Below, piece after piece: positions 16,096-48,486 of a stretch of 64,000 nt of DNA. Source of the stretch: Paramecium tetraurelia (Eukaryota; Ciliophora; Oligohymenophorea; Peniculida; Parameciidae); assembly GCF_000165425.1 (NCBI RefSeq), contig NW_001799009.1, forward strand, positions 3,005 through 67,004. The letters run 5' to 3'. The position numbers were made by a program, and so were the translations under genes. The notes below the pieces were generated by a model, which did no database searches, was not told the origin of the DNA, and saw only the letters and a list, made by a program, of their open reading frames with translations. Position 1 is the first letter of the stretch; every line of letters starts with the position of its first letter.

Positions 16096-17429
16096 TCAAT
16101 GCAACAGTCCATGTTTCAATTCCTTTTGATTCATTCTAAACTGCATGCCTCCAACATTCAAATTGATTTTACAACGTCCATTGACGCTAATCGCTGGGTA
16201 CAATTCCAGATTCTCTCCCATACTCAAAACCAAGGCCTTCCTGGTCTCCTCAATCTCCTTATTCTTATTATTCAAGTCTATAAAATAATTAATTCAATGT
16301 GATCACCAATATCAATTTCACTATCTGCATCCTCCTTCTTTTTCTCCTTCTCCATGTCCTCCTAACTCTTGCCCTCACTTGGTGGTGGAGGATTCAAGAA
16401 TTTCCCATTGTCAACTCAACCACACTCTCCCATCCTTCTATCTAATACCAATTCCTATTGTTTCCCCATAGACAGCTTGAAACTTATGATGTTGATGTAA
16501 ATTGTTCCCCTAAAACACTTGGCCTGTCAATGAATGGAATCCTACACTGGTCTAGGTACGACCCAAAGAAAACTGCTTCTGATACTCCTTAGATGAACAA
16601 AACCCTATTATGATGTCACAGTTTCTTGGATTGTCTTCTATCTCAATCTCAAAATAGGATGTGGCGTCTCTTGCCATTGGCTTGTCTGCTCTTATGGTTA
16701 ATGTTTCCCCAGGCTTGCACAGGAAGGTCAACTCGATGTACTATCCGTAATAATCTGAAGTTCGCTGCTTCTTATATACTTTCTTTTTGCTGTTACTTCA
16801 CGAGATCATCATTGGGTTCCTCCTTATTCTCATACAGTTTCCAGAATCGAAATTTGTTTCGTTGAGCAAACCCAATCCTCTCCCTCGGAATTCCACTCTC
16901 TGGTCTCTAAGAATATTCCTAATACACCCTATATTATCGATATTTTAAGTAGCCAAAAACCAGGCCAGCTATCCCTACCAAACTGCCTACTATTATTCCA
17001 GTGATCAACAACCAATGAGATCCAGATGATGCAGAATTTTCAGCCTCCAAATGGGTTATGTGATTTAAAAATTTATTTTACATAAAATATATATAATTGT
17101 AATTAATAATAATTTAAACTATAATTATTGATCCTAACCACCATTTTATTTAATCTGATCTTAAGGCTATCAAATATGCAAGATTAGCAATTCGCTAATC
17201 TACTAACCTAAAACACCAAGATGATGATGATGATTGACATTATTTCCAGTAAATGCCCTAACAAAACACAGTTCATTTAGTCAAGCAATACATTCGTATA
17301 AGCATTCACTACCTATTCCATATTATATTTAAAAGTCTTTTAGGGTAAATTCTTACTAATCGAAAGATTCTTCTCAATCGTGGAAATGGTATGTTCAACA
17401 ACTCTTTTTTGAATATCAAATGATATCAT
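16096..17429 (-). CDS. Membrane-anchored SPRY-domain protein
   Basis: Exon 1 (MISFDIQKRVVEHTIS...) joins across a 34-nt intron (17258-17291) to GIYWKQCQSSSSSWCFRL. A hydrophobic patch follows, then a clear single transmembrane helix (HWLLITGIIVGSLVGIAGLV) and a SPRY/B30.2 fold: SYFEIEIEDNPRNCDIIIGF, SLGRTQTSVGFHSLTGQVF, YGETIGIGIRQKDGRVWL, DNGKFLNPP, and a final YPAISVNGRCKINLN. Further introns: a 25-nt one (CAG acceptor) before NYYGQYIELTF and a 29-nt one before DLNNKNKEIEETRK. After VWLS the frame needs removal of one base (about 16415) to reach DNGKFLNPP. SPRY domains are protein-binding modules. Pieces of this gene recur at both ends of the second arm of the inverted duplication (41036-41117 and 46247-46330). 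Confidence 0.8.
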
Positions 17430-17626
17430 ATAGTTGGTAACCGAAAGTGTAAATAATTTGACGTAAAAAATATAGGTATTTTATAAGAGAAAAGAAAATT
17501 ATTTTTTATGGCAAAAATGAGATCAATATAATATATAAAATCCAGTTCAATTTATGACTATTACAAAAATCATGATTCCTAATTATTTAAAAATAAATAA
17601 ATTAATTATATAAATACATCGAGATT

Positions 17627-17836
17627 ATGTAGTTCAAATCAGACTCATTTGATAGTGAATTAACGGAGTATCTCCAAATAGAACAGGAATTTGAAATTAA
17701 ATAGTTGTTTAAACAACTGAAAGTTTAAAATTAATAGTTGCCGAATAAAAAGTCTAAAAAAATTAAGAAGTTGAAACTAAACATTCAAACGAATTCAATT
17801 ATGTAAAGAAGAAATGTAAACGTACAATAAATTTGA
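17627..17836 (+). CDS. Small conserved 69-aa protein, copy A
   Basis: Frame MQFKSDSFDSELTEYLQIEQ... to QRRNVNVQQI then TGA: 69 residues, acidic at the start, lysine-rich in the middle (NKKSKKIKKLKLN), no membrane segment. A second copy (45847-46056, minus strand) has the same length with four base differences, three of them synonymous in the ciliate code (Leu, Leu, Gln) and one Lys to Arg. The flanks also match closely, but they contain indels whereas the frame does not. The family is unknown. The amphipathic, charged composition suggests a small cytosolic or DNA/RNA-associated peptide, by inference only. Confidence 0.55.
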
Positions 17837-19340
17837 TATAATTTGTATATAAACTTCTCTATTCTATTTATTAGTGATATCAGTATGATTTTATTATTCC
17901 TCTCCCCCTCTTAATTGTTACTTGATTTCCTTATCATTACTAATAGATAAGCAAAATTATTTGTTTCTATTGAAAGCTGAATAAATTTATCGATTGTTGT
18001 TCATTTAAATTAACTCAATCATTATATATATATTATGATTCCTGATTAGATGAATTAGTGATTCAAAATATATATATCTTAGTGGAATTTATAGTTATAA
18101 CTAGACAGCTTGCTTCTACATTTTGAAATATTGTTGTATATTTAATTCAATTACAGTTTTATTTTAGACATAATTCGTATAATCCAACAATATAATATAA
18201 ACGCATTTTAAAAAGTCTATTTATAATATAAACTTCATATATTTCTCTTTTTTATTTCATAACAACTAATAATAAGCTAGAAATGTAAAGTAAAATGTTC
18301 TAAATATCTAATGAAGAATAGGAAATACTCCTATTTCTTGATTTTAAAAATGAATAATTAAATGAGAAATAATTTTACTGGACAATTTATTTTTTTTGTT
18401 GTTATTCACTTCAATTCTTATTTTTATGTTCCCTTATTGTAACTATGAAGCCTTTTATAAGAGAATAACTCTTTCTCTTAATAAGATTTGTACATTATCT
18501 ATATGTACTTGAGAGCACTATTTTATTTATTTAGAAATCAATATATTTTAATTTACAGTATTATGTTTAATATAAAATATTTGAGTATAAAGATTTTGGC
18601 AAGTTATAGTATATGAAATCAAAAGCAAATGATAATTATTATATTTAAAAAGAATTTAAATGAATAAGAAATAAATTTGTAAAGAAAAACAAGTCAATTT
18701 TGGAATTAAATGAGGAATACTAATTGTAGATCGAACTTTATTTAATAATATATTTTTAAAGAAATAATATATGTTCAAAAAAAAGCAGTAAGCAAATTTA
18801 ATTAGAAAAATACTTGTTAAGTTGTGCCAAATAAAAGGATATAATCGAATTGACTTCTCAATTTGATCTCTAATAAGAAAAAGAAAACTTGTTATAGGGA
18901 AATCTTATGTAGATATATGAAATGAGAGTAATTTGCAAATTTACGAACTACAGAGTTTATATGTATATTAAAATGATTACATTTTATATAAACAGAAATA
19001 CTTAGCAGAAAGGAAAACTACTTCATAAATGAATAGCTCATTAGATAAGTTATTATCAAATCTTAATTCCACTTTTAATGAGTAATATTCTTGTTAGAAA
19101 TAATTATTTACCATTTATATTAAATGTCTCACAAGAAATCAAAATAATTCCATTATATTCTAATAAAGTTGAAGGCTATTTTTAAATATTAACACTCCAC
19201 TCTCTCTATTTAATAGATGGCTCTTCAATAAATTACCTAACTCAATTTATTGATATAGAAAAACATTAAAAATGAATTTAATTAGGTATTATTGTATATC
19301 AATATTATAAATGTATATAATGAATGGAAAAACCTTCAAC
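17837..19340. other. Intergenic spacer of arm A
   Basis: About 1.5 kb between the small gene and the OSCA-like gene. It is alignable with arm B (nearly identical to about 18.56 kb, then diverged), but the differences include indels that are not multiples of three, so it behaves as noncoding. Long TGA-free frames on the minus strand are not preserved between the copies. Confidence 0.5.
18143..18170. other. 28-nt TA-flanked insertion in arm A (IES-like)
   Basis: Arm A has an insertion between GTATATT and TAATTCG that arm B lacks (B reads GTATATTAATTCG). It starts TAATTCAATTACAG and ends TTTTAGACA before a second TA, so it is 28 nt bounded by TA, plus one extra T nearby. Short internal eliminated sequences of Paramecium are TA-bounded and peak near this size, but its ends match the TAYAGYNR consensus only partly. 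An ordinary indel is the alternative. Confidence 0.35.
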
Positions 19341-21605
19341 TCAGATTGTTTCTACTTGCAAAGGCTAAATTCTGGCAGTTGAAACGGATTTCTAATTAAT
19401 CTAATTTTACCATACTTATTAAAATTCCTTTTCAAGTTCTCTCAACAATTTCACCTTGAGAGCATCGTAAAATTTTGCTTACCTTGAAAATTTATGCAAG
19501 TGCAATCCCTCAATTAATTATTATTCGTCTACTTCCTAATCTTCGTTAAGCCAAAGCGTTTCATCTATGAGTGGATTATATTTTGAGTATGAGCTGTTAT
19601 GCTCAAGGCTCCTCATTAAGGTTCCATTCGTTGAATCTTATTTTGCCTCCTTTTTAAAAAACCAACTTGTCAATAAAAATAATGCTATCAACAGAAACGA
19701 AAGAAAAATTGAAGTATATAATTAGTATCGAGTATAAATAGAAACTTTCAATACAGCATGAATAATTTGACTTGAACATATTTAAAGCATAATAGAAAAA
19801 TATATATAAAGTTTAAACATGCGAAATTCTAATTTTAAATCTTTTCTAACTCCATAATTTATAAGCTAATACTTATCGATCCAGTAGATAATCATTAATT
19901 CTATGAGAGTAATAGGATAACATATGGGAAATATATACCCATAATAGAAGCATAAATGAATTAAAATATTTGTCTAAGTGTTTTTTACATTGAAATTCAT
20001 TTTTTTTTAAACTTTTTAGTTAGCTTAAAATTATGTTAAATTTGAATTTGTATTTAAATATTTGTAATATGTAATTTGGATTAATTGCCAAGCATATTTA
20101 TAGTCTATTATACTCAATATAATAGGAATGAGAGCATTATTCAATATTGTGCTAATAACATCCTCGCTAAATCCACCAGCACACCAAATTGGTGATTTTC
20201 TTTCTTTTACATCCTGCTAATTAATACTATTGATAGGAGCAATTATATAATAAGTCAAATTTAGAGTTAATTAAAGAAATTCTGATAAAATTAAAAGAAG
20301 GTTATTATAAAAAATTTCTTACATCTCTTTGTGAAAACTTAAATGAAAGTGAAACATAATTTTTATGGTAATAAAAGAAATAGCTGCCACAGATAAGCTA
20401 ATTAGTGAATTAATATTTGATTGATATCCACTTTTTCCTGAATTTGCTTAAATATATTCATTTTTTGTTTATATAATTTTTAAAAATGGAATCCATAATG
20501 CGCTGGCTATTAAAAATTTGAGAAAAGCCTTTTTCAGATTTATTTATCGGAATTATTTTTTTGTTTTCCAATTAACATCTGAAGGCCTTGGACATTCAGT
20601 TATTGAACAATTTCTCCTGATTTTGTTTTTAAATTTAATGGCCTAATTCTTAAATTAATGACAAGAGGATTTTTACTTCATTAGAGAGAGTTAGAAAAAC
20701 TCTACCAGTAAATTGCAAAAATAATTCTCGATTTTGCAGAACAAAAATCTAATCAACAGTTGTTCTTAGAACATCTTTCAAAGAGCTAAAATAATAAATT
20801 GAAAAATCAACATATCACTATTTTAAGCAAGAATTTCCCTTATTTTAACTTTTAATTAGTTTTCTAAATGCTCTTAATCATAAATTAAACAACAATCAAT
20901 AATGTTAAACTACACTCCTTCCCCTTCTAATTACTGGTTTACAAAATAATTCATTATTTGTTTTTTGCTAGATTCGCTTGGAAAAAATAAAATCTCCATA
21001 GAGCAGGATTTTATTGCTGATTCATCATCTATTTCGTGATCTAAATTATGATAATCATATTCAGAATATGATAGATATCGAATGAAGGCTAATTGGATAA
21101 AAATAGAGACCAAGTATAAACTGTCCAAAAGGTTATCCTGAAAACTTATCATAAGACTGCATATTACTAGTCAGAATCCATCCTATTTAAAATTGATAAA
21201 TAATTGTTAAGAGTTTTTTTACAGGTTTCATTGTTCATGCATGAATATCCTTTTTAGTTCTAGATCAAATTGTATATTCCAGCAACAATACTATTAATAG
21301 TCATTAAAATTACAAATTTATAGTTAGAAGGATAAATTAAATTTGTATCATCAAAAAGTATTTGTAGGCGGTACCATGTGCAATAAATATATCTATATCA
21401 GTTGAGAGGGGGTAATTTATAGTTTAAATGGGTTAATTGCAACAAGGACATCTTTTTGAATTTCTTAGAATTTCTTTATGAATAATTTAAGCTTTCTATT
21501 TGTAAATAATTTGTAATTTACTCGATGATTCTCTGCGAATTCGAAGTTTGGTGGTGATCTTAACAAATTTACTTACTCATTAAATTCTAATCCATTTGTA
21601 TCCAT
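19341..21605 (-). CDS. OSCA/CSC1/TMEM63-like membrane protein, copy A
   Basis: About 700 residues, multi-pass. The N-terminus MDTNGLEFNE leads to CPCC (Cys cluster), a first membrane segment (FILLTIN), a cytosolic region with an RRM-like strand (MEILFFPSESSKKQ), VLQNRELFLQFTG, and a conserved CPRPSD before the C-terminal helices (YGYIFPICYPITLIELMIIYWIDKY). This layout (TM, large cytosolic loop, TM cluster) and the Y-x(4)-P-I-x(2)-P core match the protist CSC1/OSCA-like channels, which in other eukaryotes are mechano- or osmo-gated cation channels. Introns of 22-34 nt occur at positions equivalent to those of copy B (for example 26 nt after NHR, 34 nt before EAIKFKN). The C-terminus (KVKLLRELEKEF...VETI) is intact here but frameshifted in copy B. 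Confidence 0.6.
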
Positions 21606-22156
21606 TTTTATAATTAAATATTTTAAGTAAATAAAAAGTAGAGAAATAAATATATTCTATTCTACTAAATGAAAAGTTTAAGAACATTAATTTAAGATTC
21701 AAGAAAATTGATCCAAACTTATAATGCATCACCTTATAAAGATTTTGGCTCAATATCATATAAAAGCTTGAAAAAAAAAAAGGAAATGATAATTTTACAA
21801 TTGTGATAAATCTTCATCATTTAATAAATAGTATAAATAATTAACATCTTGAATTATTGATATTTGGATTACATTTAGAAATGGCGCATCAATTTTGGAA
21901 GAATTTGAACTTATTTTAATTCTTGAAATCAAACTTAATTAAGATTTATAAGAAATTAGAGAGATTAATTATTTTGATTAAAATTCGATTTTTAGAAATA
22001 TAACATTTCGCTATAGAAGTAAGTTTGTTAATTCCTTGATCTACCCAATAAATTGATAAAAAGGCAATGGAGTTCCTAAATTGGTGATTTCAGGTGTCGG
22101 CAATCTGGTTTCTAGGAGTTGAGGAAAGCCTTAAAAAATTGAGTTAAGTTATAACT

Positions 22157-22810
22157 TCATTTTAGATAAAATTTAAATACTTAAAAAAGATCTCCTCCGA
22201 TATTCCCCCAAATTGTCTTATGATTTGTATATGATAGATTTCCAATTATATTTGCAAATCCAACCGTGTATAATGTCATAATTAATAGTAATAATAATAA
22301 TAATACAATATTTAATCTGGCATAATGGGATTGCAATTTCATCATTATTTTTATTGAAATTTAAAACTATTTATTTAAAATCTTTTATCCTTTTTTCAGA
22401 TCCTCTAATTATCCTTTCAAAACATTTAATTCTTTTTCATAATCTATCTTCTCCAATTTCTTTTTTATCTATAAAACCCGTTTTTTTTCTCTATTGTTCT
22501 CTCGAATTGTAGGATGGGAAAAATAGGCTTTTAGATTTTCTTTTGATTTTATTTTGAATCCATATTTATTGAGTTACCTCATTAGACTTTGGTAATTATT
22601 GTGTTTGAAGTTGGAAGTCAGCAATTGTTTCTTAAATTCTTCAACATTCCAAATAACAAACCTATGTTCATCCCATCCTATAATCTAATAATTTTTAGGA
22701 TTCTAATTTATACATGTAAATCATACATCAAGTATTTCATATAAATGCTTCAAAAATTTTTATCTTTGCTTCTCTCCATTAGTTTCGAATCCCTTCTGAA
22801 GTTCCTTCAT
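22157..22810 (-). CDS. HSF-like DNA-binding protein with C-terminal hydrophobic segment
   Basis: 209 residues after a 24-nt intron (GTATGA...ATTAG). The winged-helix HSF DNA-binding domain is plain: FLKHLYEIL, RFVIWNVEEFKKQLL, NFKHNNYQSLMRQLNKYGFK and AYFSHPTIRENN, equivalent to the family's F-x-KLY, FKHxNxxSFVRQLNxYGF and FxHPxF motifs. A coiled coil follows (VLQIKKKLEKIDYEKELNVL), the HSF trimerisation region. Unusually, the frame then enters a strongly hydrophobic run (NIVLLLLLLLIMTLYTVGF) and a short tail ending GGDLFQVFKFYLK. Most of the run is encoded by a TTA repeat that in arm B is a perfect 29-nt intron. The protein may therefore be membrane-tethered, or the run may still be spliced in some way not visible here. 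A complete second HSF is at 52367-53084. Confidence 0.75.
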
Positions 22811-25351: not shown

Positions 25352-26913
25352 ATGAGAAAGAAATTCACTTTGCAGTTTTCGCATCCGACAATAGAACAGG
25401 CTTATTAAAAAGATAGGTTATTGAAATATTTGTGGATGAAGAAAATACTGGCAATATTAATCCTGTTGTTTTCGATAGTAGGGTTGATTAGTTCCTTATT
25501 TTATGAAAAATAAGAGATTATGTATTGGGAGGTAGGTTTCACAAGTTACAGCATAATTTTGATAATCATCTCTTTCAAGGGATCTCCAGAAAAAGTGAAG
25601 GCTATATTTCAATTTACAAACATACTCTTGTGTATTCTCTAGGTACGAGCTAATTATTACTCAACTCCTCAGTGTATTTACTTGAGTGGATAAAACATTA
25701 TGATTTTCAATATGATAATGTTCTACTTTTCAAGTATCTAGGAAGCACCTATTTAATTAATTTTCTTTCTCGTTTCAAGATGTGTGATAACTGGATTAGT
25801 GAATGAGATGTTTATGGGACAAGATCTGATATCAATAATATTGACAACACTTTGTATACTAATTTTTATATATCATAATGATTAAATTCAAAGAGAGCAT
25901 TTCCTATTGCAATTCTCGGATAAATAATGGGGTATTAATATTATTTAATTACAGAATAAACTTTGCCAATAATTATTTAAAGTCCGTTCGTCATGTTTAC
26001 ATTCGATGAAGAAAGATTGAACTTTAATTTGAAAATTGCCAATGATATGTCTGAAATATGTTGGGATAGTGAAAAAGCACCCTCTGAAAATTTAAGATAC
26101 TTTCTGAGATCCTTCAAAATGGGAAACGACAATTTAGAATAATATCTCGTCACGAGAAGCAGGACTTGCAGCGATTATAAGAAGATTTATTAATTCCAAT
26201 TAAGAATTCAAAGAAATGAATAAATCTACGGAACCAAGAAATTCGTTATTAGATTTTCAGATTTCTACTTGCGAGAACAAGTGTTCCTGATCGTCTTTGA
26301 TCAACACGAGCAACAAATAAGAGTCTTGGAGAAAGTCAAGACCGCTTTAATCTAGGGTATCAATTAACACTAAAATTTAACAATCAATTTCTTGTAAAAA
26401 CAATAGCAATTACTCTAAAATCTGATTGTATCTAGTAATTCCATCAGCACTATTTATAAAATGAAGATTCATTGCATGTATTTCATAGGAAAATATACTC
26501 AATGCAATAGTTTTTAGGAAATCGAACAATAAATAATATAAATTAATCTTACTGATATGATCAAAGGATTGATACACATTTATTGTATGGCGTATAAAAC
26601 CATATAAATTGAGTTTTCAAGTAGCACCTTTGAGGATGTATATGTTTTTAGTAATGAACAACTTTTGAATATATTTTTAGTCATCATATTTTAGACACTT
26701 GTTCGGATATGTTAAAATGGTAAAACAGTGTTCATCCACATTAATGAGGCAGATAAATAATAAGATTTGGAACTGATTAAGATTAGTGTGCTGTTTAATA
26801 AGTCAGAGGAACTCAAATAGAAATTAGTATATAACTAACTATTCTACAAATTACAAGTAAGATTAAGTCCAAAGGTGGATATTCTATCTCATGATAATGG
26901 TAATCATCTATGA
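25352..26913 (+). CDS. Membrane histidine-kinase-like protein 1 (degenerate)
   Basis: About 510 residues with a 23-nt intron (GTATTA...TACAG) near 25931. The N-terminal signature KFTLQFSHPTIEQAYQ is shared with the three related genes. At least four membrane helices follow (ILAILILLFSIVGLISSLF and others), then a PAS-like strand (FVMFTFDEERLNFNLK), and FLIVFDQHEQQIRVLEKVK leading to INQHQNLTINFLQKQ where a histidine kinase would have its phospho-acceptor helix. A weak ATPase-like region (SNEQLLNIFLVIIFQTL, then GKTVFIHINEAD) follows without the canonical N, G1 or G2 boxes, and the protein stops early. Known histidine kinases have His-Glu or His-Asp at the acceptor; here it is His-Gln. It may sense signals but lack kinase activity (inference). 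Confidence 0.55.
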
Positions 26914-26934
26914 ATATTGACTAGCATGCCATTT

Positions 26935-28165
26935 TGAAATTTATAAGGATTTAAATTTGTTGAATGCAATCCGAATGTTGGAGGAAGATATATCCTGACT
27001 CGATCCTTGGCTATTTAATTTATGTTTACTCAATCTTTATAGACAAGAAATAAATATTAATATCATAATCATCTAAATTTATTGCCAAACAAGACCTTGT
27101 CCAGTCTTGTAACAGATCATCTACTGCAGACAGTTTTCCTCTGACTCAAGACTAACAACAAATCTTTATCTTATTTATTTGAATTTAATTTAGAAATGCT
27201 TTATGACCAACCATTACTAAATGTTATTTCAGTTAAAGTTAATTTGAATAATTTTGCCTATTCTTGAACCAGGAGTGAGCGTAATTATCAAAGATATTTG
27301 CCCTTTCTTTTGGGTGATTAACAAATATCAGACTCAAAAGATTTATCAATTCTTTAGAGATTGATTTTTTTGATAAACCTTAATTATATTAAATGATATT
27401 TCTATAGGTTTCAGAAGGAATAGTTCCATCGAAAGGGAGTCTCCCAAAACTAGTCCATATATTATGCATCCAACTGCCCAGACATCTTAAGAGGGTGAGA
27501 CGCCTCTAAATAAAGAGGAGAACTTTAGGGGCCAGATAAGATAGCGTATCTACAACACTTCTGTTGATATTTAGTGTCCAGTATAGGTTGAAATACCGAA
27601 GTCAATAATTTAAATCTAATTTTAAATATTAAAAACTATTTCTTTAGAAGAAGGAGATGTTTAGCATGATATTTTCTAACTTCAAATCATAATGGGCAAT
27701 ATTATTTTCATGACAATAAGCTATTGCATCAACTATCTATTTCGAATGTAGTTTAGCATCTCCTTCAGGTAGTTTTGCGATGATAACATATACTTTATTA
27801 TATACAATTAGCATAGTTGAGGAGTAATCCACCTTTCAAGTATTCCATAATCATTTCAATCTCAATTTGATTCTATGTTACATAACTTTAATGTAATTTA
27901 ACAATGTTTTTAGGATCAAATGCTTTCATAATTAATTATTCTTATGGAACTCCATCCATTTCCCACCCTGACCATGATTATTAATTAATTATTTTAAAGG
28001 CTGTTAATTCCTTTGTGACTTTATGCCTTCCAAGTAATACTATCCCTTGGCCTCTTTCTCCTATTTTATTGATGATATACCCAAAAATTATAGCTTACAC
28101 TTTCACTCTAATTTAACTTACTTTATCACATCACCTTCAGATAATATTTGGTTTAATATCTTCAT
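26935..28165 (-). pseudogene. Decayed serine/threonine protein kinase
   Basis: Kinase motifs are recognisable but lie in different frames. The glycine loop IGERGQGIVLLG has lost its second Gly (Arg instead), the Lys is in TAFKII, the catalytic loop reads HYDLKLENIM (the Arg of HRD replaced by Tyr), and DFGIST is in another frame. SYLAPKVL replaces APE, then DVWAVGCIIYGL, then LPFDGTIPSETY and ISKELINLLSLIF. At least four frame changes are needed and no short introns explain them. It overlaps nothing functional and ends near the stop of the histidine-kinase-like gene on the other strand. It is most similar in layout to ciliate CAMK/ULK-like kinases. It is probably a dead copy. Confidence 0.7.
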
Positions 28166-32305: not shown

Positions 32306-32356
32306 TCTTCACGTTGTGTAATAAGATAAAAATTAATTAATTAATTATTATTGTAA

Positions 32357-33060: not shown

Positions 33061-33103
33061 TTATTGCATTTTAGACTGTGTTTTAATTACAATTATTATT
33101 TTA

Positions 33104-34140: not shown

Positions 34141-35524
34141 ATGAATGAAATGGAAGCAAATAGGAGATCTAATTTTTTTGCTGCTAGTGGAAAAAGGGTT
34201 GTCCAAGAATAATAAGAACAAGTAAATTATTTAATTCAAGCAGATGGCGATTAGAGAAGATTAAAAATATAAGTTATAATAATATAATGATGATTAAAAA
34301 TTAGAAAGACAAGAGCCAGTTCCTTTTTATTTGTAAAGAAATGATCGGCCATAAAAAATAACAGCTGCAGAAAGAAAAGAAATAATTCGAAACATTGAAT
34401 TAGAAGCGAACAGAAATTCTGATGGGGGGATATTTGCAAAAGTGTATAAACAAAAGGATGCAAAAGATTAATAGTAATAGACATAAAAGCAATAATTCAT
34501 TGATGAAATATAAAAGTAAATAGAAGAAAAGAAAAGGAGGAAAGAGGAGGAAAGGTAAAAACAAATCGAAGAGGATAGAAAGTATGAAGAGAAATTAAAA
34601 AAAGAAAGAGAAAAAATAAGTTAAAATTAGAATAAGGAAGATGACAAGAAACTCATAATTAAAACGATTAAAAATAAACATCTTAGACAATAATAGGATG
34701 ATTCAAAGTTCATTTTCAACGAATTCGAAGATCACTAGATTAATTTAACTAATAATAATATAGTTCCTAATTATCTCAAAGAAGTTGATGATAAATATGA
34801 TTAAGAACTTAAACATAAGGTAAATCCTCACACTCCTTTAACGAAATTATAATCTTAAAGAACTTTGCAAGATTAAAATCTAATAAATATTACATATAAC
34901 CCTCCCAATACAGCTGGTCAAAACCAAAATAGCACGTCATTTAGAAATAATTCATAACATTAATATAATTAACAATTAAATTAGTATGAAATATCTTAAA
35001 TGTAATCACAATAATAATAGGTATTTCAATAATAATCCTATCTTGATTCCTACTAATAGTCTAACTATCAATATTAACCAATCTAATATAGATCTGTTAT
35101 GCCATAAATAATTTAGTAGATTTAATAGGAGCAATAGGAATTATTAGAGATAAATAAATTTAAAAGCAGAGAATAAGAATAAGGAATAGAAAAATTGAAA
35201 GAAGAAATTGAATTTTAATCTAATAAATGGAATGAAGAGTTGAAAAGGCTAAGGGGAGAGGTTTAAATAAATACTGAAAAAAAAAATAGAGCATTTTATG
35301 AATTATACAATCTAAAGGATGAGTTGAAAAAACAATAATTATTTGAGGAGGCTAATTTGAAATTGGTGAAATAATAGGTTGCAAATAGGAGACCTGATAG
35401 TTTAGCTAGTTCTGAAAAGAAATTAATCACAGAAAGCGATTACAAAAAGAGTTCACACTAAAGTAGACAACTATCTAATATAGAAGATAATTTATTTCTT
35501 GAAACTTTTGTTGATTAAATATGA
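34141..35524 (+). CDS. Coiled-coil protein, possibly CCDC66/CSPP1-like
   Basis: About 453 residues with one 22-nt intron (34222-34243, GTAAAT...AGCAG). The N-terminus is MNEMEANRRSNFFAASG, then RNDRPQKITAAERKEII and a strongly charged helix with FIDEIQKQIEEKKRRKEEER, the type of Glu/Lys/Arg-rich repeat found in CCDC66 and CSPP1 microtubule-associated proteins. The middle is Gln/Asn-rich and disordered (QQQVFQQQSYLDSYQQSNYQ). The C-terminal third is again coiled coil (KLKEEIEFQSNKWNEELKRL). A ciliary or basal-body microtubule role is plausible by analogy; this is a similarity of style rather than a proven homology. TGA 35522-35524. Confidence 0.65.
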
Positions 35525-35886: not shown

Positions 35887-36126
35887 ATGAATTAAAATAA
35901 ATGTTAATCTGATTCTGGAGGGACTAAAACTAAAGTCCCTGAGGAAGATCATTTTCTACTTGTTATGAACTAAGTCTTGGAAAGACACAAGTCAATTGCA
36001 GCTAAAAACAATGAAAGTTAACTACTTCAAAATGCTCTTAAGGCTTTATAATAAGAATTAAATGAAGCAGAATCTAAGAATCCTGGATCTGCTAAGTAAA
36101 TACTAGATTCCATTTTCAATAATTGA
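35887..36126 (+). CDS. Small 79-aa hypothetical protein
   Basis: Intact 79-residue frame, MNQNKCQSDSGGTKTKVPEE, an amphipathic helix (FLLVMNQVLERHKSIAAKN), then LLQNALKALQQELNEAESKN and IFNN before the TGA. Mostly helical and charged, with no membrane segment and no recognised family. Start and stop are clear, and its composition is much less AT-driven than the flanking sequence, which supports it as a real small gene. Confidence 0.6.
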
Positions 36127-36932
36127 TTATTAGAATATTAAATATCAGAATCACTCTACTTTTTGGAATTTACACCATAATGTTCTTAAACTTTTTTTTA
36201 CATCTTTAGTATATGTAATCAATTTCAAGAATAGTATATGCTGATCGAGAATTTCAGATTAAAACTTCTATAATTTATGACCGATTATAGACCTAGAGAT
36301 AGTTGACATGAGTCAATGTACATTTCTTTTGTAATTGAAAAACTACCATTTGTATTCTTTTTAAGTAGCATTACCTCTCTTCATTTACTTTCATTTCAAT
36401 AATTTATTTTTGCAGTTGCCATCTAATATTCGTATTATGGTAATTTGCATTATATTATCATAATTAAGTTTCTTTGTAAATCACCTTATTCTCTTTATAC
36501 ATTGTTTCATAATAAACTTCATAATGACTTTAAAGTATAAATTTACACCTGAATTATATAAATATATTTATTAATCATCTACTCTATAAGATTAATCTAA
36601 CAGTAGATTTGTTCACTAAATAGAAATTTTGAATTATATGATTCTGATAATCTAATTTCAATCATGAGGTTGCTCACTTCTGCATTTAACAATAACAGCA
36701 GTTCTTACCAAACCTTAATAACCCAGATAATATATGATTTCTTTTAACTTGTTCTCTCTTTATAATTAAAATTAGTATTATTTTTCTCTTCTTCATTTTG
36801 CCCTGTGAACCATATTATTTTCTTCGTTAACATAATTTGTTCTCCTCTCCTTTTGTTCTGTCAAACGTATAATTCAACTCCCATTCAAAATCGATTGTTT
36901 AATATATTATTTAATAAGATAGACACAAGGCC
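36127..36932. other. AT-rich intergenic region
   Basis: No gene seen. There is a pyrimidine-rich stretch around 36780-36870 and scattered short frames that overlap nothing recognisable. Confidence 0.45.
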
Positions 36933-36940
36933 AAAAAAAA
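36933..36940 (-). terminator. Pol III T-run after tRNA-Thr
   Basis: The plus-strand A run here is an oligo-T on the minus strand immediately after the tRNA-Thr 3' end, the usual RNA polymerase III stop signal. Confidence 0.7.
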
Positions 36941-37013
36941 AGCCAATTGGGGGAATCGAACCCCCGACCCTTTGCTTACGAGGCAAATGCTCTAACCACT
37001 GAGCTAAACCGGC
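36941..37013 (-). tRNA. tRNA-Thr(CGT)
   Basis: Folds as a cloverleaf on the minus strand: acceptor GCCGGTT paired with AATTGGC (two G-U pairs), D arm with TAGCTCAGTGGTTAGAGC (A box), anticodon stem around loop CTCGTAA giving anticodon CGT (reads ACG, Thr), and T arm GGTTCGATTCC (B box). No intron. The discriminator base is T on the minus strand. It is followed by an oligo-T stop signal. Confidence 0.9.
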
Positions 37014-37046
37014 ATCGTTAAATACTACATTTATTTATTATATAAA

Positions 37047-37633
37047 TCACAATTCATCGTGCATCTTCTTCACATATTAAATAAATTTATGCTCAAATTG
37101 CATAGCTGCAAAATTCAACTGAGTCTCACTGATTGGCTTATAAGTACTTACTCCATTCTCCAAAAGATCAATAAATCTCTCTTATTCACCTTCGTAATCT
37201 TCTGCTACGAAAGCTATTTTCAAAGTAGTCCCTAATGAATCATCCATATACTCGCTTACCTTTCTTTACTTCAGGTTTTACAGTCAAAACAACACTCTTA
37301 TATTAATCTTCATTGATTATGATTTAAGGAACAAAGTTCTAGAGACTTAATCCGACTGCATTTCCATTCATTCCAAATTACAAAAAGAAATCAGTCTCAG
37401 GAAATAATTCCTTCAAATCTATTACATTAGTATTCAGCTTTACTTTTGGCCTTAGATCTTTCATGATAGATCACAAATTAATTATATTTCTCTGAATAAC
37501 ACAAAACTCCATCGAATTCTTTGTAATATCCATCCAATACAGTAGCTACTTAAACCTTCACTTTCTGTAATCCTGCTTCCTTTTAATCGCAATAGCCAAA
37601 AATGAATAATGCAAACAACACTATTAAACTCAT
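37047..37633 (-). CDS. Small secreted-type protein (apparent frameshift)
   Basis: Starts MSLIVLFALFIFGYCD, a clean signal peptide, so the product is likely secreted or lumenal. It continues KVKVQVATVLDGYYKEFDGV, then, after dropping one base near 37465 (GAAAGATC), LRPKVKLNTNVIDLKELF and FGMNGNAVGLSLQNFVPQI. A 28-nt intron (GTAAGC...ATTAG) precedes TTLKIAFVAEDYEGEQERF and the C-terminus FIQYVKKMHDEL with TGA at 37047-37049. No known domain; regular beta-strand spacing suggests a small globular fold. It lies 33 bp from the tRNA gene. Confidence 0.65.
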
Positions 37634-38171
37634 TTTTATTAATCAAATTTTTCCATTAAATTTATTCTTAAATATTATTATCTCTACACGTAAGCATGAT
37701 TCCAATTTCTTGATTTAATTTAATTTTTTCATTATTCCCACCCCAGAACTCTGAAGTTCAACTGATTAATATATTAATTAGCCTGTTTGATCCAGTATTC
37801 AAAAAAGAATAAATAAAGAAAATAGATAAATTTAATCAACTTTTATATTATTTCCACTCATTAAATTTTATAATATTTTAATTTAATTGGAGTATCAACA
37901 TTCCTTAGAATGTGTATATCATTTTTTAATAAAGTATTAAACTTCTTCCATAAATTTTATATCTAATAGTATTATTATTTGTAAGGAGAAACCAAAAAAG
38001 AAAAGATATGCAATATATATCCTAGATAATCAGAAATTTTAATTTTGCCTTGAAGAAATTGTTAAAAAAATAAATTCAGTAAGATTATAAAATTATTATT
38101 TATGTTTAACAGAGTTGTTATAAAAAATTTAGATTATTCCTTATAAACTTAATTAGATGCAGGAACTCAAA
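37634..38171. other. AT-rich intergenic region
   Basis: About 540 bp with no supportable gene, between the start of the secreted-protein gene and the stop of the histidine-kinase-like gene. Confidence 0.5.
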
Positions 38172-39721
38172 TCATATCAAAAGATATTCTATAATATCAT
38201 ATGTCATAAATATTAATTTATAATCAAATTAATTAGTCTATCTATTTTTTATTTTTCCCAGAAAACGGTATATACGGGTTTATTTCAAAAGACATTTCAA
38301 TTGCTAGAATATTGAATTATAATTACCATATTTAGTTACTTAGGTTAAAATTACAAATCTACTGAGAGATTCTTAATGAAGTTCAAAAAATGAAAGAACA
38401 ACAGAAGAATTAAAATGCCCACTAACCACTAACTAAATCGTATCTTCGTCTAATTTAGAGTACCTAAATTTAATCATATAGGTATTTGTATTAGAAAATA
38501 TCTTAAACAATACTAAACTAAAAATATCTGAATTTGTTTTCAAGTTTATTGTGTTTTTTATATTGATCTATACCATTAAGTCTGGAAAATATTTGGCTTG
38601 CTTTGAAATTATATGACAAAGATTAATTTCTTATACTGTTTATTCCCAGCTATTTTATAAGTTATGATATATTTCGATTAACCGAATCCGTTTCATAAAC
38701 GTAATATAATGTTATTTTTATTTTAGTTTTTTCTTCAAACTCTTTAATAATTAAACAAAGTATTAAAAAAAAACTGGGCTTTCTATTGTTGAGGATGTAT
38801 TTTATATCCTTAATTTGGGTTTATGAAAAATTAATAAAATAGTTGGCTAGTTTGCGAAAAAGATCGAAAACTCTAATTTTATTAATTCCCTTTATTATTT
38901 AACCATGATTTCTTTTTTAAAAAGATCAATTCTGTCTTATTGATGTTGTTTCATCTAATCGTATAGGTAGTTGTTGAGTGATTTCTTTTAGTGCTGAGCT
39001 TCTTTTAAAAAATTTTGAATATCTTCCTTATCTTTAAAGCCATTTGAGAAGTTGTGTGCCATAAAATACTCGAACTAAAATGAACTCTCATTGAAGTTTA
39101 ACATGATATATGATTACTTATGAATCAACTACTCTAATATTCTTTCCCATTATCTATCTTTCTAAATTAACATAAATTGTGCTCTTATTGCCTCATTGTA
39201 TTTGTACACAAAAAACATTTGACAAATAGATATGAAAACAAGCTTCCTATGGGGTATAAGGTCAAGGATTTAGTTTAATTCAATATGAAAATAATTCTGA
39301 TAATCGTAATTGATATTGTCTGAAATAATGCTTCTGGAAATTCAGTTCCTATAGTTATGAGAAAACAAGCTCCCATTTAGTTTAAACCTTTCAAATGTGA
39401 AGTCGCTGCATCACTGTCTTCATCATATAGATAAAAAAAAATTGTCAATATATGATTTGAAAGCACTGATAGGATTCTCAAACTGATATAGTGTTTGTTT
39501 AAAAAAATGTCCACAAAAATTATGAATAACAGCATTATTAGGTTTTGATAAAATCGCATTAACTCACCATTAAGCACATAGGTTAAGCATCTGAAAAAAA
39601 AAATAATCATGTAACCTTTTGCAAGCAGATTAAAATGAGTAATTCTAATGTGCTACAGAGATTGAGACTAATAAAGGGCTTCCACTTTTTTGTCGTAGAA
39701 GAACAAAGTAAATTTATTCAT
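38172..39721 (-). CDS. Membrane histidine-kinase-like protein 3 (frameshift)
   Basis: Family N-terminus KFTLFFYDKKVEALYQ, then hydrophobic helices (NLIMLLFIIFVDIFL, LSVLSNHILTIFFYLY, ACFLITIGTEFPEALF, SITIIRIIFIL). After a one-base shift in a T6 run near 39195 the frame continues YKYNEAIRAQFMLIQK, SYIMLNFNESSFQFEYFM (the PAS-like strand of proteins 1 and 2), a long helix, and a C-terminus with MVQINIKNTINLKT and DTIQLVVSGHF where the ATPase strands should be. I see no clear His-Gln acceptor here. TGA 38172-38174. It is probably decaying: besides the frameshift, its ATPase motifs are poorer than those of the other copies. Confidence 0.5.
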
Positions 39722-39784
39722 CTTAATAAAAAATATAGAAATTTTCAATTTTGATACCTTAATCAGTTAATAAAGAGTAAAGAA

Positions 39785-40929
39785 ATGATTAAGATAAATG
39801 AATTGTTGAACAACAATATGATTAATTATAACACGTGTTTGGAAATTCTTAAGAATTTCAGAACAGAAATGGTATTAAAGACCCAGACTGAAATAAAATT
39901 AAACCTCTTTTTAATTGTCAAATTTTAATATTTCCAGATTACTCAAAATTATGACTTACTTAATTAACTTGAATTTTACATATGCAAAATAATAGCAATA
40001 TTCAGAATTGTTTTTAAATCCAAAAATACACCATCAACTTCTCATAATAACAGATCTGAGCAAACAGGAATTGTATAACCCATTTGATAAATTATGACAA
40101 ATGATATTAAAATTCAAATATATAAAAATATGGATGTTTCAACAATCTTAGATAAAAATAGGAGTATTTAATTATTTTGTTTTTTAGATTTGAGCCATAG
40201 ATTTGATTTACTTTCGATTGATGAGATAGTGATCTTATTTTTACTATTAAGACTGATCTTTCTTTGACTTCTGATACTCTTAAGAATATGCATCTGAAAT
40301 GATACTTTTTTGAGTTATCTTTAAGCAACTTGATTTTATTTTTCATCTAGATATCTGAATCTTGTTTCCCATGTTATGATTAACTTATGAAATGTTATAT
40401 TAATATCAGAGCTAGACTGGTATATAGCGAAGCATTATTCTGTGCCAATCCTTTTTGCTCTCAAATCTTGAATTTTAAATATCGCCTTCTTGAGAATTTT
40501 ATGAGTATAAAATTGAATTATTTATTCAAATAACTAATGGCAATTTTGTATGAAGACAGGTAAACCTTTGAAGAAGATAGAGTGAAAGGATAAAAACTGT
40601 GAGTTATGTTATAATTTACCTTTGGCGAATCTTTCTTCTATTCGATTCAATCATAGTCAAATTATTATGGTAATGCCAAATCTAATTCTAAGTTATTTTA
40701 TTATGGCAATTTTTATGAATTAGTGAAAGAAGGATAGGGTTATGAGTTCTAATCATCCAATTAGCTGTCTTTCAGAATCTCTTAGATTATCATAAAGATT
40801 ATTGAATTTTTATTTAAGTAGAAGATCAAAGAATAGCATATCTTAGTTTTGTGCAGCATCAAATAATTCAATTTTAAATTTGTTGATGATTTTGATAATT
40901 TTGATAATTTTGAGGATTATATTTTATGA
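39785..40929 (+). pseudogene. Remnant, possibly of a histidine-kinase-like gene
   Basis: Three coding-like plus-strand pieces with stops between them: 39785-40087 (MIKINELLNNNMINYNTCLE), about 40096-40275 (MDVSTILDKNRSIQLFCFLD) and 40606-40929 (MLQFTFGESFFYSIQSQSNY to DDFDNFDNFEDYIL). Order and composition resemble the C-terminal half of the neighbouring histidine-kinase-like proteins, and the last piece (QGYEFQSSNQLSFRISQ) sits where a G2-like box and the final strands would lie. The third piece alone could be a 107-aa gene. It contains a GATAATTTT repeat (about 40888-40914). Confidence 0.35.
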
Positions 40930-41035
40930 ATATGGATGATTAGAATCTATTTGAGGGTGAATGGAATGGATAATCCTTAGAGTTTTTGGGTAATTTATTA
41001 AAAATATAGGTACAATGTTGTATAGTGATATACTA

Positions 41036-41117
41036 GCCTAAAATAGCACGAATATGATAGATATTATTTCCACTAAATGCCCTAACCAAAAATAATTGAT
41101 TGAGTCAAGCAATACTA
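41036..41117 (-). pseudogene. Fragment of the SPRY gene (intron 1 and exon 2 start)
   Basis: The minus strand carries a 34-nt intron-like stretch (41082-41115, GTATTG...GTTAG) of the same length and ends as intron 1 of the SPRY gene, followed by GIQWKQYLSYSCYFRLV, which matches GIYWKQCQSSSSSWCFRLV there. The match fades beyond that point and no SPRY domain follows. Its orientation is the same as the SPRY gene at 16-17 kb, opposite to the adjoining arm B. Confidence 0.7.
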
Positions 41118-41467
41118 TTCAAGAGAACAATAGAGAAAAAAAACAGGTTTTATAGATAAAATAGAAATTGGAGAAGATAGATTATGAAAAAGAAATAAAT
41201 TATTTGAAAGGATAATTAGATGACCTGAAAAAGATAAAAGATTTTAAATACATAGTTTTAACTTTCAATAAAAATAATGATGAAATTTCAATCCCATTAT
41301 GCCAGATTGAATATGGTATTATTATTATTATTACTATTAATTAGTTGACATTATACACGGTTGGATTTGCAAATATATTTGGAAATCTATTATATACAAA
41401 TCATAAGACAATTTGGGGGAATATCGGAGGAGATCTTTTTTAAGTATTTAAATTTTATCTAAAATGA
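41118..41467 (+). pseudogene. Truncated HSF-like gene of arm B
   Basis: Matches the coiled coil and C-terminus of the HSF-like gene of arm A (REKKQVLQIKQKLEKIDYEK, then LTLYTVGFANIFGNLLYTN and GNIGGDLFQVFKFYLK) but lacks the whole DNA-binding domain; homology starts abruptly at about 41118. It also has a frame change in the A run near 41240 relative to arm A. In this copy the TTA repeat forms a perfect 29-nt intron (GTATTA...ATTAG). Confidence 0.75.
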
Positions 41468-42016
41468 AGTTATAACTTAACTCAATTTTTTAAGGCTTTC
41501 CTCAACTCCTAGAAACCAGATTGCCGACACCTGAAATCACCAATTTAGGAACTCCATTGCCTTTTTATCAATTTATTGGGTAGATCAAGGAATTTACAAA
41601 CTTACTTCTATAGTGAAATGTTATATTTCTAAAAATCAAATTTTAATCAAAATAATTAATCTTCCTAATTTCTTATAAATCTTAATTAAGTTTGATTTCA
41701 AGAATTAAAACAAGTTCAAATTCTTCCAAAAATTAATAATCATAATCCAAATATTAATAATTCAAGAAGTTTGATTATTTATACTATTTATTTAATGATT
41801 AATTAGCATTACTATATTATAATTATTCTTTTAATTACCATTTCGTTTTTTTTTAGCCTTTTATTCAAATGAAAAAATCTCTCTAATGATTTTTCCATTC
41901 ATCCTAAATTTTAATCCTTCTTAATTAATTTATACTATTACTTTTAACTGAGTAGAATAGAAAATATCGATTTTCATATTTTAATATTTACAAACAGAAA
42001 TATTTATTAATAAAAA

Positions 42017-44143
42017 ATGGATACTAATAAATCAGAATTCATTGACGAAGAAAATTTGTTAAAAGCACCCCCAAATTTCTTATTAGCTGAGAAACATTGC
42101 GTAAATAAATATTATTTACAAACAGAAAGCTTAAATCATTCATTAAGAAGTGATAAGTAACTCATAAAGATGTCCTTGTTGCAATTTACATGTTGAAACT
42201 ATAAAGTATTCCCTCTTAACAGATATAAATACTTTTGTTTAGGAGGGTACCGCATACAAATACCTTTTGTTTATAAAAAATGTATTTATTCTTCTTAGTA
42301 TAAATTTGTAACTCTCTAATAATTATTAATAGTATTGTATTTGGAATATATAATTTTATTTAGAACTTAAAAGGAGATTCATGCATTATGAATGAAACTT
42401 GCAAATAGAATTTGAACAATTATTTATCAATTTTAAATAGGATGGATTCTTACTTGTAATTTAAGATTTTATGATAGTTTTGAAGATAATATTTTGGATA
42501 TTTTATATTTGACTTCCACTGCTATACAATTAGCCTTCCTAAGATATATATCATATTCTAAAGATGATGATTATAATATAGATAGAGAACTTGATAGCGA
42601 GTTTACAATATCAAAATGCTCGTTAAAGATCAAAAATTTGCCTAGTAATTGCAACTAAAAAGAAGGTTTGAGTCTATTTGTAAATAATTTATACAAAAGT
42701 GACAATGATCCATTAAACATTATTGATTCTTGTTTAATTTATGATGAAGAATATTTAGAAAATTAATTAAAATTTAAAATTAAAGAAATTCTAACTCAAA
42801 ATAATGATAGGTTTGTTTTCAATTTATTATTATTAGCTCATTGAGAGATGTTATAGAGAGAACTGTTGATTTGAATTATGTTTTGCAAAATCGAGAATTT
42901 TTTTTGAAATATGCTGATAGAGGATTTATAACTTTTGCTAGTGAAGTAATAATAATTTTATCATTTTTAGAGAGAGGCTATCAAATTTAAGGATTTACTA
43001 AATAGAAAAAGTGTGATTGATTGTCCAAGGCCTTCTGATGAAAAATGGATTACTAAGAAATAAAAGGTTAATTTAATACTTGAAACTATCCTATTTATAA
43101 TAGAATGGGTTTGCTTTTATCTAATCTACTTATTCTAAAATATAAAAGATGAATATACTGAAACAAATTCTGGATATTAATTAAATAGTAAAACACTTTT
43201 GAGCTTTTCTATGCCTATTTTGTAAAAGATTAGTATTACCTTACAATAAAGAACATATTAAAAAGTACTTTAATATAGTTAATTTACTCAATTGCCTTAA
43301 TATTATTTTGAAATTTTTTAATTGCTCATAAGTTCATTCAATGTTGTCGCATTTCCTCTTTTAATTTTTGAATAACGAGGCTAATAAGAAAGTAAATTAA
43401 AATTTTGGGGTGATGGCGGTTTCAATGAAGATATTATTTTTATCATAGTGATTAGTTCAATTTCATTTATGGGATTAAGTATAATAGATTAAGAATATGC
43501 TTGGAAACTATTAAAAACTTTTTATTACAAATATTTAAATCGAAATTCAACTTTAACATAATTTGAAGCTAACTAATTAATCTAAAGAAAATTGGACTTT
43601 AATGCTAAATATATTGGATTACTTCATTTAATTTTTTCATGCTCCTATTATGGGTATATTTATCCCATCTGCTACCCTATAACTCTCATAGCTCTATTTA
43701 TTATCTTTTGGTAAGAAAAATACTAACTTATTAATTATGGAGTTTAGGAGGAATTCAAATTCAAAAAAGACTCATTAAAATTGCCTATATTACTTCTCTT
43801 TATTTTTTAAGTTTCATCTCCTCAATTAATTCATAATGTATTTAAAATATCACCAACTACTCGCCCATTTTTTTATATATTCCTTTTTTTGATTTTTTTA
43901 CTCATTTACTTGTTTTTTTTTTCTGATTTGATTTTTATCAATTAATCTTCAGATTATCAAACGGCCGAAGCCTTAATGAAAAGCCTTGAGCATAACGATT
44001 TATACTCAAAATACAATCCTATAATAAATGAAACTCTTTGGCCTAACAAAGAGTATGAAAAAGTATGGAAATAATAAAATTTTAGGGATTACATTAACAT
44101 AAATTTTCAAGATAAGAGCGATATTACAACACTCTCAAGGTGA
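42017..44143 (+). CDS. OSCA/CSC1/TMEM63-like membrane protein, copy B
   Basis: Same layout as copy A: MDTNKSEFIDEENLLKAPP, Cys cluster CPCC, cytosolic RRM-like strand (SLKIKNLPSNCNQKEG), VLQNREFFLKYADRGFITFA, CPRPSDEKW, then helices including LILETILFIIEWVCFYLIYL, KYIGLLHLIFSCSYYGYIYP and CYPITLIALFIIFW. Introns of 22-26 nt remove stops (for example GTAAAT...AACAG after KHC and GTTTGT...ATTAG before SLRDVIER). The final ~40 codons are out of frame by one base (near 44065) relative to copy A, so the protein ends SDITTLSR, whereas the other frame still encodes KVKLLRELENEF and ends at about 44265. Probable ion channel family; copy B may be a recent mutant. Confidence 0.6.
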
Positions 44144-45846
44144 AATTGTTGAGAGAGCTTGAAAACGAATTTTAATAGGTAACGTAAAATTAGATTAATT
44201 AGAACTCCATTAAAAAAGTCAGCATATAACCTATTTAAGGTGAATAAATGGTAGTAGAAGAATGAAGATCTTAAAATTCATATATATTATAATATAAATT
44301 ATTTTTCTAAATCCAATTATTTGTATTATATTTCTAATTTTAAATATAAAATATCATAGAACACTATTACAGTATACAAATCTATTAGGAGCACTTGAAT
44401 ATGCCATATTAGATAACTTAAATTCTATCAAATATTAATTTAGATACAAAAAAAGAAATAGAATCCATGAGATTAAGATGATTTTGAAGAAATACTATCT
44501 AATTGATCACATTACAACAATAATAGGCAATACCAAATTGAAAAATATAAACATCCAAATAATTTATAGCTATCAAAATATAGGAGTACAATTCAAATGT
44601 TAAAAAGAATTATTTTTATTTTTCGCTCAAGTTGGTTAATATTTATTCTAGTAGTTCCTTATTTATTCTAAGATAACTCGAACAAAATTTTAATCATACT
44701 AAGGTTTTTATATAGATTTCAATTTATTTTCTTAATTCTTCTGAATTATACTCAGAAATAGTTTGCTTTAGGGTTCAAACTCAGGTTTTCTAAAATTACT
44801 TCTCCTTTCATATGATCTACTTGATATTTTTTAAGAATAATTAATAATTTGCTATTTAAGACTATTTTCTTAACTTATTACAAGTTTTTAAAGATTACCC
44901 TTCTCTTCTTTCTTACCTTATTATATTAAATGTGGATTTCTCAATTCCAAATATCAGTTATATTTAATTTCACAAAATATTCTAATTTTATTAGATCTAC
45001 TTATTGCTTTTGAATTTAAACTATTCTACTAAAAAAATACTTGTCTCACTCATCATAACTTTCAATCAACATTCATTTTTAATTCTATTATTATCTTTAT
45101 CAAATATCATTTGCTTTTGATTTCATATACTATAGCTTGCCAAAATCTTTATAATAAACATAATACTGTAAATTAGAATATATTGATTTCTAAATATATA
45201 AAATAGTGCTCTCAAGTACATATAGATAATGTACAAATCTTATTTAGAGAAAGACTTATTCTCTTATAAAAGGCTTCATAGTTACAAATAAGGGAACATA
45301 AAAACAAGAATTTAAGTGAATAACAACAAAAAAAATAAATTGTCCAGTAAAATTATTTCTCATTTAATTATTCATTTTCAAAATCAAGAAATAGGAGTAT
45401 TTCCTATTCTTTATTAGATATTTAGAACATTTTACTTTACATTTCTAGCTTATTATTAGTTGTTATGAAATAAAAAAGAGAAATATATGTAAATAGACTT
45501 TTTAAATGCGTTTATATTATATTGTTGGATTATACGAATTAATATACAACAATATTTCAAAATGTAGAAGAAAGCTGTCTAGTTATAACTATAAATTCCA
45601 CTAAGATATACATATTTTGAATCACTAATTCATCTAATCAGGAATCATAATATATATATAATGGTTGAGTTAATTTAAATGAACAACAATCGATAAATTT
45701 ATTCAGCTTTCAATAGAAAAAAATAATTTTGCTTATCTATTAGTAATGATAAGGAATTCAAGTAACAATTAAGAAGAGGAGAGGAATAATAAAATCATAC
45801 TGATATCACTAATAAATAGAATAGAGAAGTTTATATACAAATTATA
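44144..45846. other. Intergenic spacer of arm B
   Basis: Equivalent to the 17.8-19.3 kb spacer of arm A: diverged up to about 45.1 kb, nearly identical after that. A TGA-free plus frame of about 840 nt occurs here but is not kept in arm A (1-nt and 12-nt indels), so it is treated as noncoding. Confidence 0.5.
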
Positions 45847-46056
45847 TCAAATTTATTGTACGTTTACATTTCTTCTTTACATAATTGAATTCGTTTGAAT
45901 GTTTAGTCTCAACTTCTTAATTTTTTTAGACTTTTTATTCGGCAACTACTAATTTTAAACTTTCAATTGTTTAAACAACTATTTAATTTCAAATTCCTGT
46001 TCTATTTGAAGATACTCCGTTAATTCACTATCAAATGAGTCTGATTTGAACTACAT
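45847..46056 (-). CDS. Small conserved 69-aa protein, copy B
   Basis: Same 69-residue frame as copy A (MQFKSDSFDSELTEYLQIEQ start, QRRNVNVQQI end). The four base differences leave three codons synonymous and change one Lys to Arg in KKLKLN. It is on the strand opposite to the OSCA-like gene, as in arm A. No domain recognised. Confidence 0.55.
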
Positions 46057-46246
46057 AATCTCGATGTATTTATATAATTAATTTATTTATTTTTAAATAA
46101 TTAGGAATCATGATTTTTGTAATAGTCATAAATTGACTGGATTTTATATATTATATTGAATTCTTATTTACAATAAAATAATTTTCTTTCCACTTAAAAT
46201 ATTTGTTTTTAACATCAAATCGTTTACACTTTCAATTACCATCTAT

Positions 46247-46330
46247 ATGATCCCATTCGATATTCAAAAAGAGTGTTTTAAACGTACCATTTCCTCGATT
46301 GAGAAAAATTTCTCTTTTTTGCAAGAATTT
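46247..46330 (+). pseudogene. Fragment of SPRY gene exon 1
   Basis: Reads MIPFDIQKECFKRTISSIEK, aligned with the SPRY gene start MISFDIQKRVVEHTISTIEK, then diverges within about ten codons. Nothing of exon 2 follows here; that piece is at 41036-41117. Confidence 0.7.
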
Positions 46331-48456: not shown

Positions 48457-48486
48457 TTTATTAGTTAATATTTATTTTTATAATAT

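Follow-up and report, generated by a model that had tools for sequence, protein, structure and literature searches.

An inverted duplication inserted into a gene after whole-genome duplication in Paramecium tetraurelia, with arms of mosaic identity

The inverted arms of the mammalian Y palindromes are kept similar by arm-to-arm gene conversion. We describe here two inverted arms, A and B, in a 64,000-nt stretch of the Paramecium tetraurelia genome (contig NW_001799009.1, here C56, positions 3005–67004; hereafter the window), one of which is a copy inserted into a gene. For Paramecium, gene conversion is reported as common between paralogues left by whole-genome duplication (WGD) (PMC10195154) and as widespread between WGD duplicates, with intrachromosomal recombination little known (PMC11334263); conversion between ohnologues is likewise described (PMC3464196). 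Judged by titles and the opening lines of abstracts, the papers listed in searches on conversion in Paramecium and ciliates mention no arm-to-arm conversion like the one proposed here. A survey of the Paramecium aurelia group counts a median of 28 recent single-gene duplications per genome, and describes post-WGD duplication as commoner for genes that have lost their WGD partner, such duplications being very rare in the group (PMC10195154). Complex rearrangements with inserted copies and short microhomology are ascribed to the repair of double-strand breaks by templated insertion, microhomology-mediated break-induced replication (MMBIR), or fragment capture (PMC2621351, PMC11724301), with inverted insertions in yeast mostly of 5–34 bp (PMC11724301).

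These processes are known, and the locus is a well-preserved case. Its inverted arms, like those of the Y palindromes, appear to have been homogenized by conversion; unlike there, homogenization is confined to the ends, the spacer measures ∼18.6 kb, and one arm is partly nonfunctional. As in the reported conversion between WGD paralogues, overwritten copies would look younger than their true age, but the exchange here would join the arms of an inverted duplication that arose later, within a single contig, and its two tracts pass over the gene in the middle (gene M). The copying took place after the WGD, as for the aurelia-group duplicates cited above, and M has no counterpart, among the matches listed, on the contig that carries the WGD paralogue of the locus (C7); unlike those single-gene duplicates, the insertion is multigenic. 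With templated insertion, MMBIR, and fragment capture, the locus shares a complex rearrangement, inserted copies, and short microhomology; it differs from them in that 5.35 kb with complete genes was kept over evolutionary time.

Comparing the window with itself by BLAST (E ≤ 1e-10, low-complexity sequence filtered) returned three repeat pairs. Two are inverted, 17306–18665 against 46372–45071 (89.8% identity) and 19334–22511 against 44260–41113 (75.4%), and bear out the preliminary description of the arms as inverted copies (17306–22511 against 41113–46372). The third (17198–17295 against 41028–41120, 78.8%, E = 2.7e-14) is in direct orientation. We compared the locus with other loci of the same genome (69.07 Mb, 231 contigs): the WGD paralogue on C7 and more distant copies on C198 and C89. 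Genome-wide searches scored the best candidates only, and their results are given as the matches listed. C7 is collinear with the locus, with nucleotide matches mostly of 70%–86%, and the longer matches to C198 and C89 are mostly at 66%–79%. The paralogous contigs of two ages, the genetic code (translation table 6), and the 22–28-nt introns are consistent with an aurelia-group macronuclear genome.

Arm B is a 5351-bp insertion (41022–46372) that is absent from C7 at 62001/62015. C7 has 13 bp in its place, and the flanks are collinear on both sides (window 40746–41021 with C7 61736–62001, and window 46373–49817 with C7 62015–65438). Comparison with the WGD paralogue, which the preliminary description had suggested, also identifies the source: C7 has the order SPRY gene, gene X, and HSF gene as in arm A, lacks arm B, carries the spacer (window 22–41 kb) in the same orientation, and stays collinear beyond arm B. 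Because these three genes stand in the C7 order in arm A, arm A is the original and arm B the copy. A source locus that was kept, a copy at a new site, and an empty site on C7 together mark arm B as an insertional segmental duplication.

The empty site lies within the second exon of gene Y, which is predicted to be intact in C7 (376 codons, C7 61017–62175). In the window, pieces of Y flank arm B, both on the minus strand: a 5′ piece on the start-codon side (46373–46536) has two frame changes, its alignment running on to 46343 inside arm B, and a 3′ piece (40198–41021, aligned from 41015) is a pseudogene with seven frame changes and two stops over 297 residues. Arm B is therefore an insertion into Y, and it broke this gene after the WGD. 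The expected intervals of C198 and C89 gave no usable counterpart of Y (scores 51–65), so the older WGD copies are uninformative on the empty site. The preliminary description had overlooked this insertion, as well as the apparent later homogenization of the arm ends considered below.

Arm B is made of two fragments. One (41028–41115, plus strand) is a direct copy of 17198–17291 (plus strand), a left source fragment upstream of the predicted SPRY coding sequence (CDS); BLAST extends the match to 17295/41120. The other (41113–46372, minus strand) is, by self-BLAST, C7 comparison, and arm alignment, a flipped copy of arm A (17306–22511, plus strand), which holds in its ancestral place the SPRY/gene X intergenic region, gene X (plus), gene M (minus), and HSF (minus) up to the break. 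The two source pieces adjoin in arm A, the first ending at 17291 and the second beginning at 17306 with 14 bp between; therefore one piece was flipped relative to the other, as had been proposed. The SPRY-side sequence is broken, with its ends on opposite sides of arm B (∼41115 and 46372). The junction that had been placed near 41117 is real: arm A position 17291 is joined to HSF position 22511 with TAC in common, so that SPRY-side sequence reaches 41115, whereas 41113 is already the first HSF position. At the left edge, target GTTGT (to 41021) is followed by six unassigned bases and then by arm A sequence from 17198 onward; at the right edge, 17306 is joined to target TATC (46373). Microhomology, read by eye, is 3 bp at the internal junction and 0–2 bp at the other two. 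Among the matches listed, sequence 18000–18640 occurs in arms A and B only, and HSF sequence 21870–22720 in both arms and on C7 (77%), with a further weak match of 64 bp on C91.

The duplication appears to postdate the WGD, because the two copies of gene M have a lower proportion of synonymous differences (pS = 0.431) than any of the 12 window–C7 gene rows (0.511–0.753), in agreement with the empty site. One of these rows (25352–26998 against C7 46619, 28%) pairs paralogues that are not WGD partners and shares its C7 model with another row, two further rows share C7 model 27798, and no row was obtained for four of the 16 genes predicted in the window. The M copies are 52.1% identical at the amino acid level, with a synonymous divergence (dS) of 0.64, a ratio of nonsynonymous to synonymous divergence (dN/dS) of 0.53, and differences at 24 of 79 fourfold sites. 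The two SPRY-side pieces outside the high-identity tracts align with far higher scores between A and B (91 and 200) than between A and C7 (43 and 19) or B and C7 (24 and 21), and therefore B derived from A after the WGD.

Segmenting the arm alignment with a two-state model with preset rates revealed mosaic identity: 75.2% over 17306–17522, 97.5% over 17523–18634, 64.9% over 18635–21883, and 96.1% over 21893–22511. Tract 1 (A 17523–18634, B 46159–45105) covers gene X and downstream DNA, with 27 of 1060 columns different (each run of gaps scored as one), and tract 2 (A 21893–22511, B 41731–41113) covers the 3′ half of HSF, with 24 of 619 columns different. The fewest differences over 300, 600, and 1000 columns were 4, 12, and 24, compared with means of 54, 122, and 216 in uniform shuffles, and none of 2000 shuffles reached any of them. 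Identity therefore changes within one arm pair in sharp steps beyond chance, the mark of ectopic gene conversion. Constraint is a poor explanation for the high-identity tracts where C7 fails to align. Sequence 18640–19320 is not alignable between the arms beyond chance (score 40, reached by 16 of 200 shuffles), and in the adjoining part of tract 1, where most sequence likewise has no gene assigned to it, identity is 97.5%. Different ages within one arm pair point to later replacement, of which the simplest form looks to be gene conversion that affected the two ends of the arms and left M between them untouched. We tentatively infer a direction from A to B, because HSF is open in A and both tract 2 indels are in B, with C7 agreeing with A. 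Using C7 as reference, tract 2 substitutions were 7 A-derived, 9 B-derived, and 6 neither, and the portion of tract 1 covered by C7 had 2 A-derived and 2 B-derived (7/13/6 and 10/10/5 over slightly wider stretches).

We consider the following history of the whole locus fairly probable. After the recent WGD, a double-strand break inside Y would have been repaired by joining two adjoining fragments copied from 18–24 kb upstream, 17198–17291 directly and 17306–22511 flipped, with the loss of ∼13 bp of target and of 14 bp at the source break, and with ∼3 bp of microhomology at one junction. Y would have been destroyed and then decayed, and arm B would have carried in gene X, gene M, and an HSF piece lacking its head. 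The two M genes would have diverged, each remaining open. Some 10 times more recently, to judge roughly from how far the parts have diverged, homologous repair with arm A as template would have overwritten the ends of arm B (1.1 and 0.6 kb) and left M alone.

The preliminary description had instead proposed a direct copy followed by an inversion. By that account a direct copy was inserted, an inversion with a break at 17291/17306 later flipped most of it, and the remaining HSF sequence was deleted. The flip is real, and an inversion would indeed bring SPRY-side ends that lie 14 bp apart in arm A to opposite ends of arm B. A separate inversion is less likely, however, as its right break would have to coincide with the insertion edge (46372/46373) to within the ∼13 bp of target lost; an exact additional deletion in HSF would also be required, and C7 preserves no intermediate. 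The separate loss of the HSF DNA-binding half becomes unnecessary if one repair event joined two adjoining fragments. We hold the two-step account unlikely, if worth some weight; parsimony favors, by a fair margin, one event, by fragment joining or template switching, and joining is simpler than an inversion because it needs neither the deletion of the HSF head nor the coincidence of inversion break and insertion edge. MMBIR-like template switching from a collapsed fork in Y would be one form of a single event, and its probability overlaps with that of the preferred history; we regard it as improbable. Replication would have run forward through 17198–17291, jumped at TAC onto the other strand at 22511, gone back to 17306, and returned. 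The 3-bp microhomology at 41113–41115 and a copy made with its source kept agree with such a path, but it offers no reason why the second stretch should end 14 bp short of the end of the first, and the other junctions show by eye little or no microhomology. Insertion through a circular intermediate was rejected, for it would place the SPRY-side piece inverted, yet the piece is direct; so was crossing over between the arms as the cause of the flip, the spacer having the same orientation as in C7.

Other explanations bear on the mosaic itself. Arm B could be a recent (∼3%) duplication in which M of one arm was later replaced by a diverged paralogue, and the two high-identity blocks are indeed similarly diverged (27/1060 and 24/619; Fisher p = 0.14). 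But sequence outside both the blocks and M is also diverged (75% at 17306–17522 and 79% at 17198–17295), Y has had time to decay, and the M gene on C169, the closest other one among the matches listed, is less similar to either arm (44% and 41%) than the arms are to one another (52%), and we judge this origin very improbable. An assembly chimera, an objection raised in the preliminary description, is hardly credible from the assembled sequence: near-identical inverted tracts of 0.6–1.1 kb can mislead assembly, but C7 is collinear on both flanks, Y is decayed on both sides of arm B, and the tracts, at 96%–97.5% and not 100% identity, differ by 2.5%–3.9%. It is quite improbable, though conceivable, that the arms are a live recombination substrate and that the tracts record repeated recombination between them, which would also flip the 18.6-kb spacer; the polyploid macronucleus might then carry both spacer orientations, with selection removing conversions that erase M.

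Several points weigh against the fragment joining and later arm-end conversion that we prefer. The evidence comes from one genome, the choice of one event over two is a matter of parsimony, the gene models of the window and C7 are our own codon-model predictions, and the microhomology is short at junctions that have diverged since. The uniform shuffle leaves uneven constraint unmodeled, the substitutions give no direction of conversion, and C7 is hard to align near the arm B insertion at 22278, making polarity there approximate. The M pairwise dN/dS of 0.53 could reflect one constrained and one free copy, and the comparison of frame lesions between M and Y, given below, counts every frame change in Y, some of which may be short introns.

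The locus is informative because several genes that differ in WGD status were copied together in a single event whose age can be roughly estimated. Gene M, with no C7 counterpart listed, is open in both arms; HSF, which has a C7 partner, was copied headless and is probably dead; and Y, also with a C7 partner, was the target and was lost. What appears to have lasted is an additional M gene and an additional X gene, with Y lost. Conversion of the arm ends would make the gene X pair seem recently duplicated, which calls for caution with counts of duplicates based on synonymous divergence (Ks).

Pfam upheld the HSF and SPRY assignments made earlier. The arm A HSF gene (21756–22810, minus strand; predicted 334 aa, open) matches HSF_DNA-bind at 22705–22484 (E = 2.3e-14). 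Its 3′ half in arm B (41113–41731, plus strand) starts at arm A position 22511 and keeps about the last nine residues of that match; the piece is probably dead because it has almost no DNA-binding domain and two frame-changing indels (a 2-nt deletion and a 2-nt insertion, absent from A and C7). The predicted SPRY CDS (16096–17083, minus strand; 299 aa; Pfam SPRY E = 2.3e-6, 28.2 bits against a cutoff of 26.3) is itself unbroken. Broken SPRY-side sequence does lie at opposite ends of arm B, but the preliminary reading of it as exon 1 of SPRY lacks support for its coding status: the CDS starts at 17083, C7 is 83% identical up to 17159 and aligns weakly beyond until gene X, and the sequence may be the SPRY/gene X intergenic region. 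Codon log-odds separated coding from noncoding poorly on short open reading frames (ORFs), gene X itself scoring −0.5. Gene X (17627–17836, plus strand), a 69-aa ORF in tract 1, has homologous sequence in A, B, C7, C198, and C89, and is open and nearly identical in both arms. Just upstream, a 25-bp block (17538–17562, AAATCCAGTTCAATTTATGACTATT) is almost unchanged in all five and, judged by eye, is more conserved than the gene X ORF.

Gene M of arm A (19341–21605, minus strand) encodes 712 aa, has five short introns (22–28 nt), and is distantly like CSC1/OSCA (PHM7) membrane proteins. The arm B copy (42017–44265, plus strand) has the same five introns and no internal stop; five frame changes first aligned in the arm A copy, at like positions in the arm B copy, are explained by these shared GT–AG introns. 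A frame-breaking length change in arm B coincides with a 23-nt GT–AG stretch (44063–44085), possibly a piece of exon turned intron; splicing it would keep the frame and give 700 aa, and leaving it would give 667 aa with a changed C terminus. The arm B copy appears to be under constraint, with at most one frame lesion (near 44063) compared with ∼21 expected at the rate of gene Y (Poisson P ∼ 1e-8). The OSCA label for M, first suggested by a motif, is weakly backed. Among five aligned M family members, PHM7_cyt was found in two (best E = 1.2e-11), RRM_1 in two, and Anoctamin in one (best 9.2e-6), weakly suggesting membership in the CSC1/OSCA (PHM7) family. Searched singly against Pfam at E ≤ 1, neither M copy matched PHM7_cyt or Anoctamin, and RRM_1 appeared for arm B only (0.047); at E ≤ 1, PDB chains gave no match to the arm A copy alone or to the five-member profile.

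M may have entered the arm A locus after the WGD, because none of the matches listed for M lies in C7, C198, or C89. The C169 gene (43.9% identity and dS 1.06 to the arm A copy, 41.0% and 1.01 to the arm B copy) could be a WGD-age relative at a moved place, and M perhaps not truly partnerless, because it is about as distant (dS 1.0–1.1) as WGD pairs. Between gene X and HSF, arm A (17900–21900) holds M, and C7 (36660–39530) holds a predicted 377-aa gene (37363–38563) and a second HSF-like stretch.

Reading TAA and TAG as glutamine (translation table 6) gives long ORFs in both arm regions, up to 541 aa; with table 11, neither region has an ORF of 80 aa. Within 16000–47000, Rfam at the gathering threshold found nothing besides one tRNA gene (36941–37013, minus strand, 71.2 bits), which has nucleotide matches in C7, C198, and C89. 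Matches to 36933–49694 are inverted in C198 (57.9–64.5 kb) and C89 (42.1–49.4 kb) relative to the window and C7, and therefore the two WGD branches differ by an inversion; window 34151–35352 is likewise inverted in C198 (53.7–54.9 kb), out of that order. Two spacer genes (25352–26998 and 28486–30094) are convergent, distant paralogues, the first being 28% identical at the amino acid level to the C7 partner of the second.

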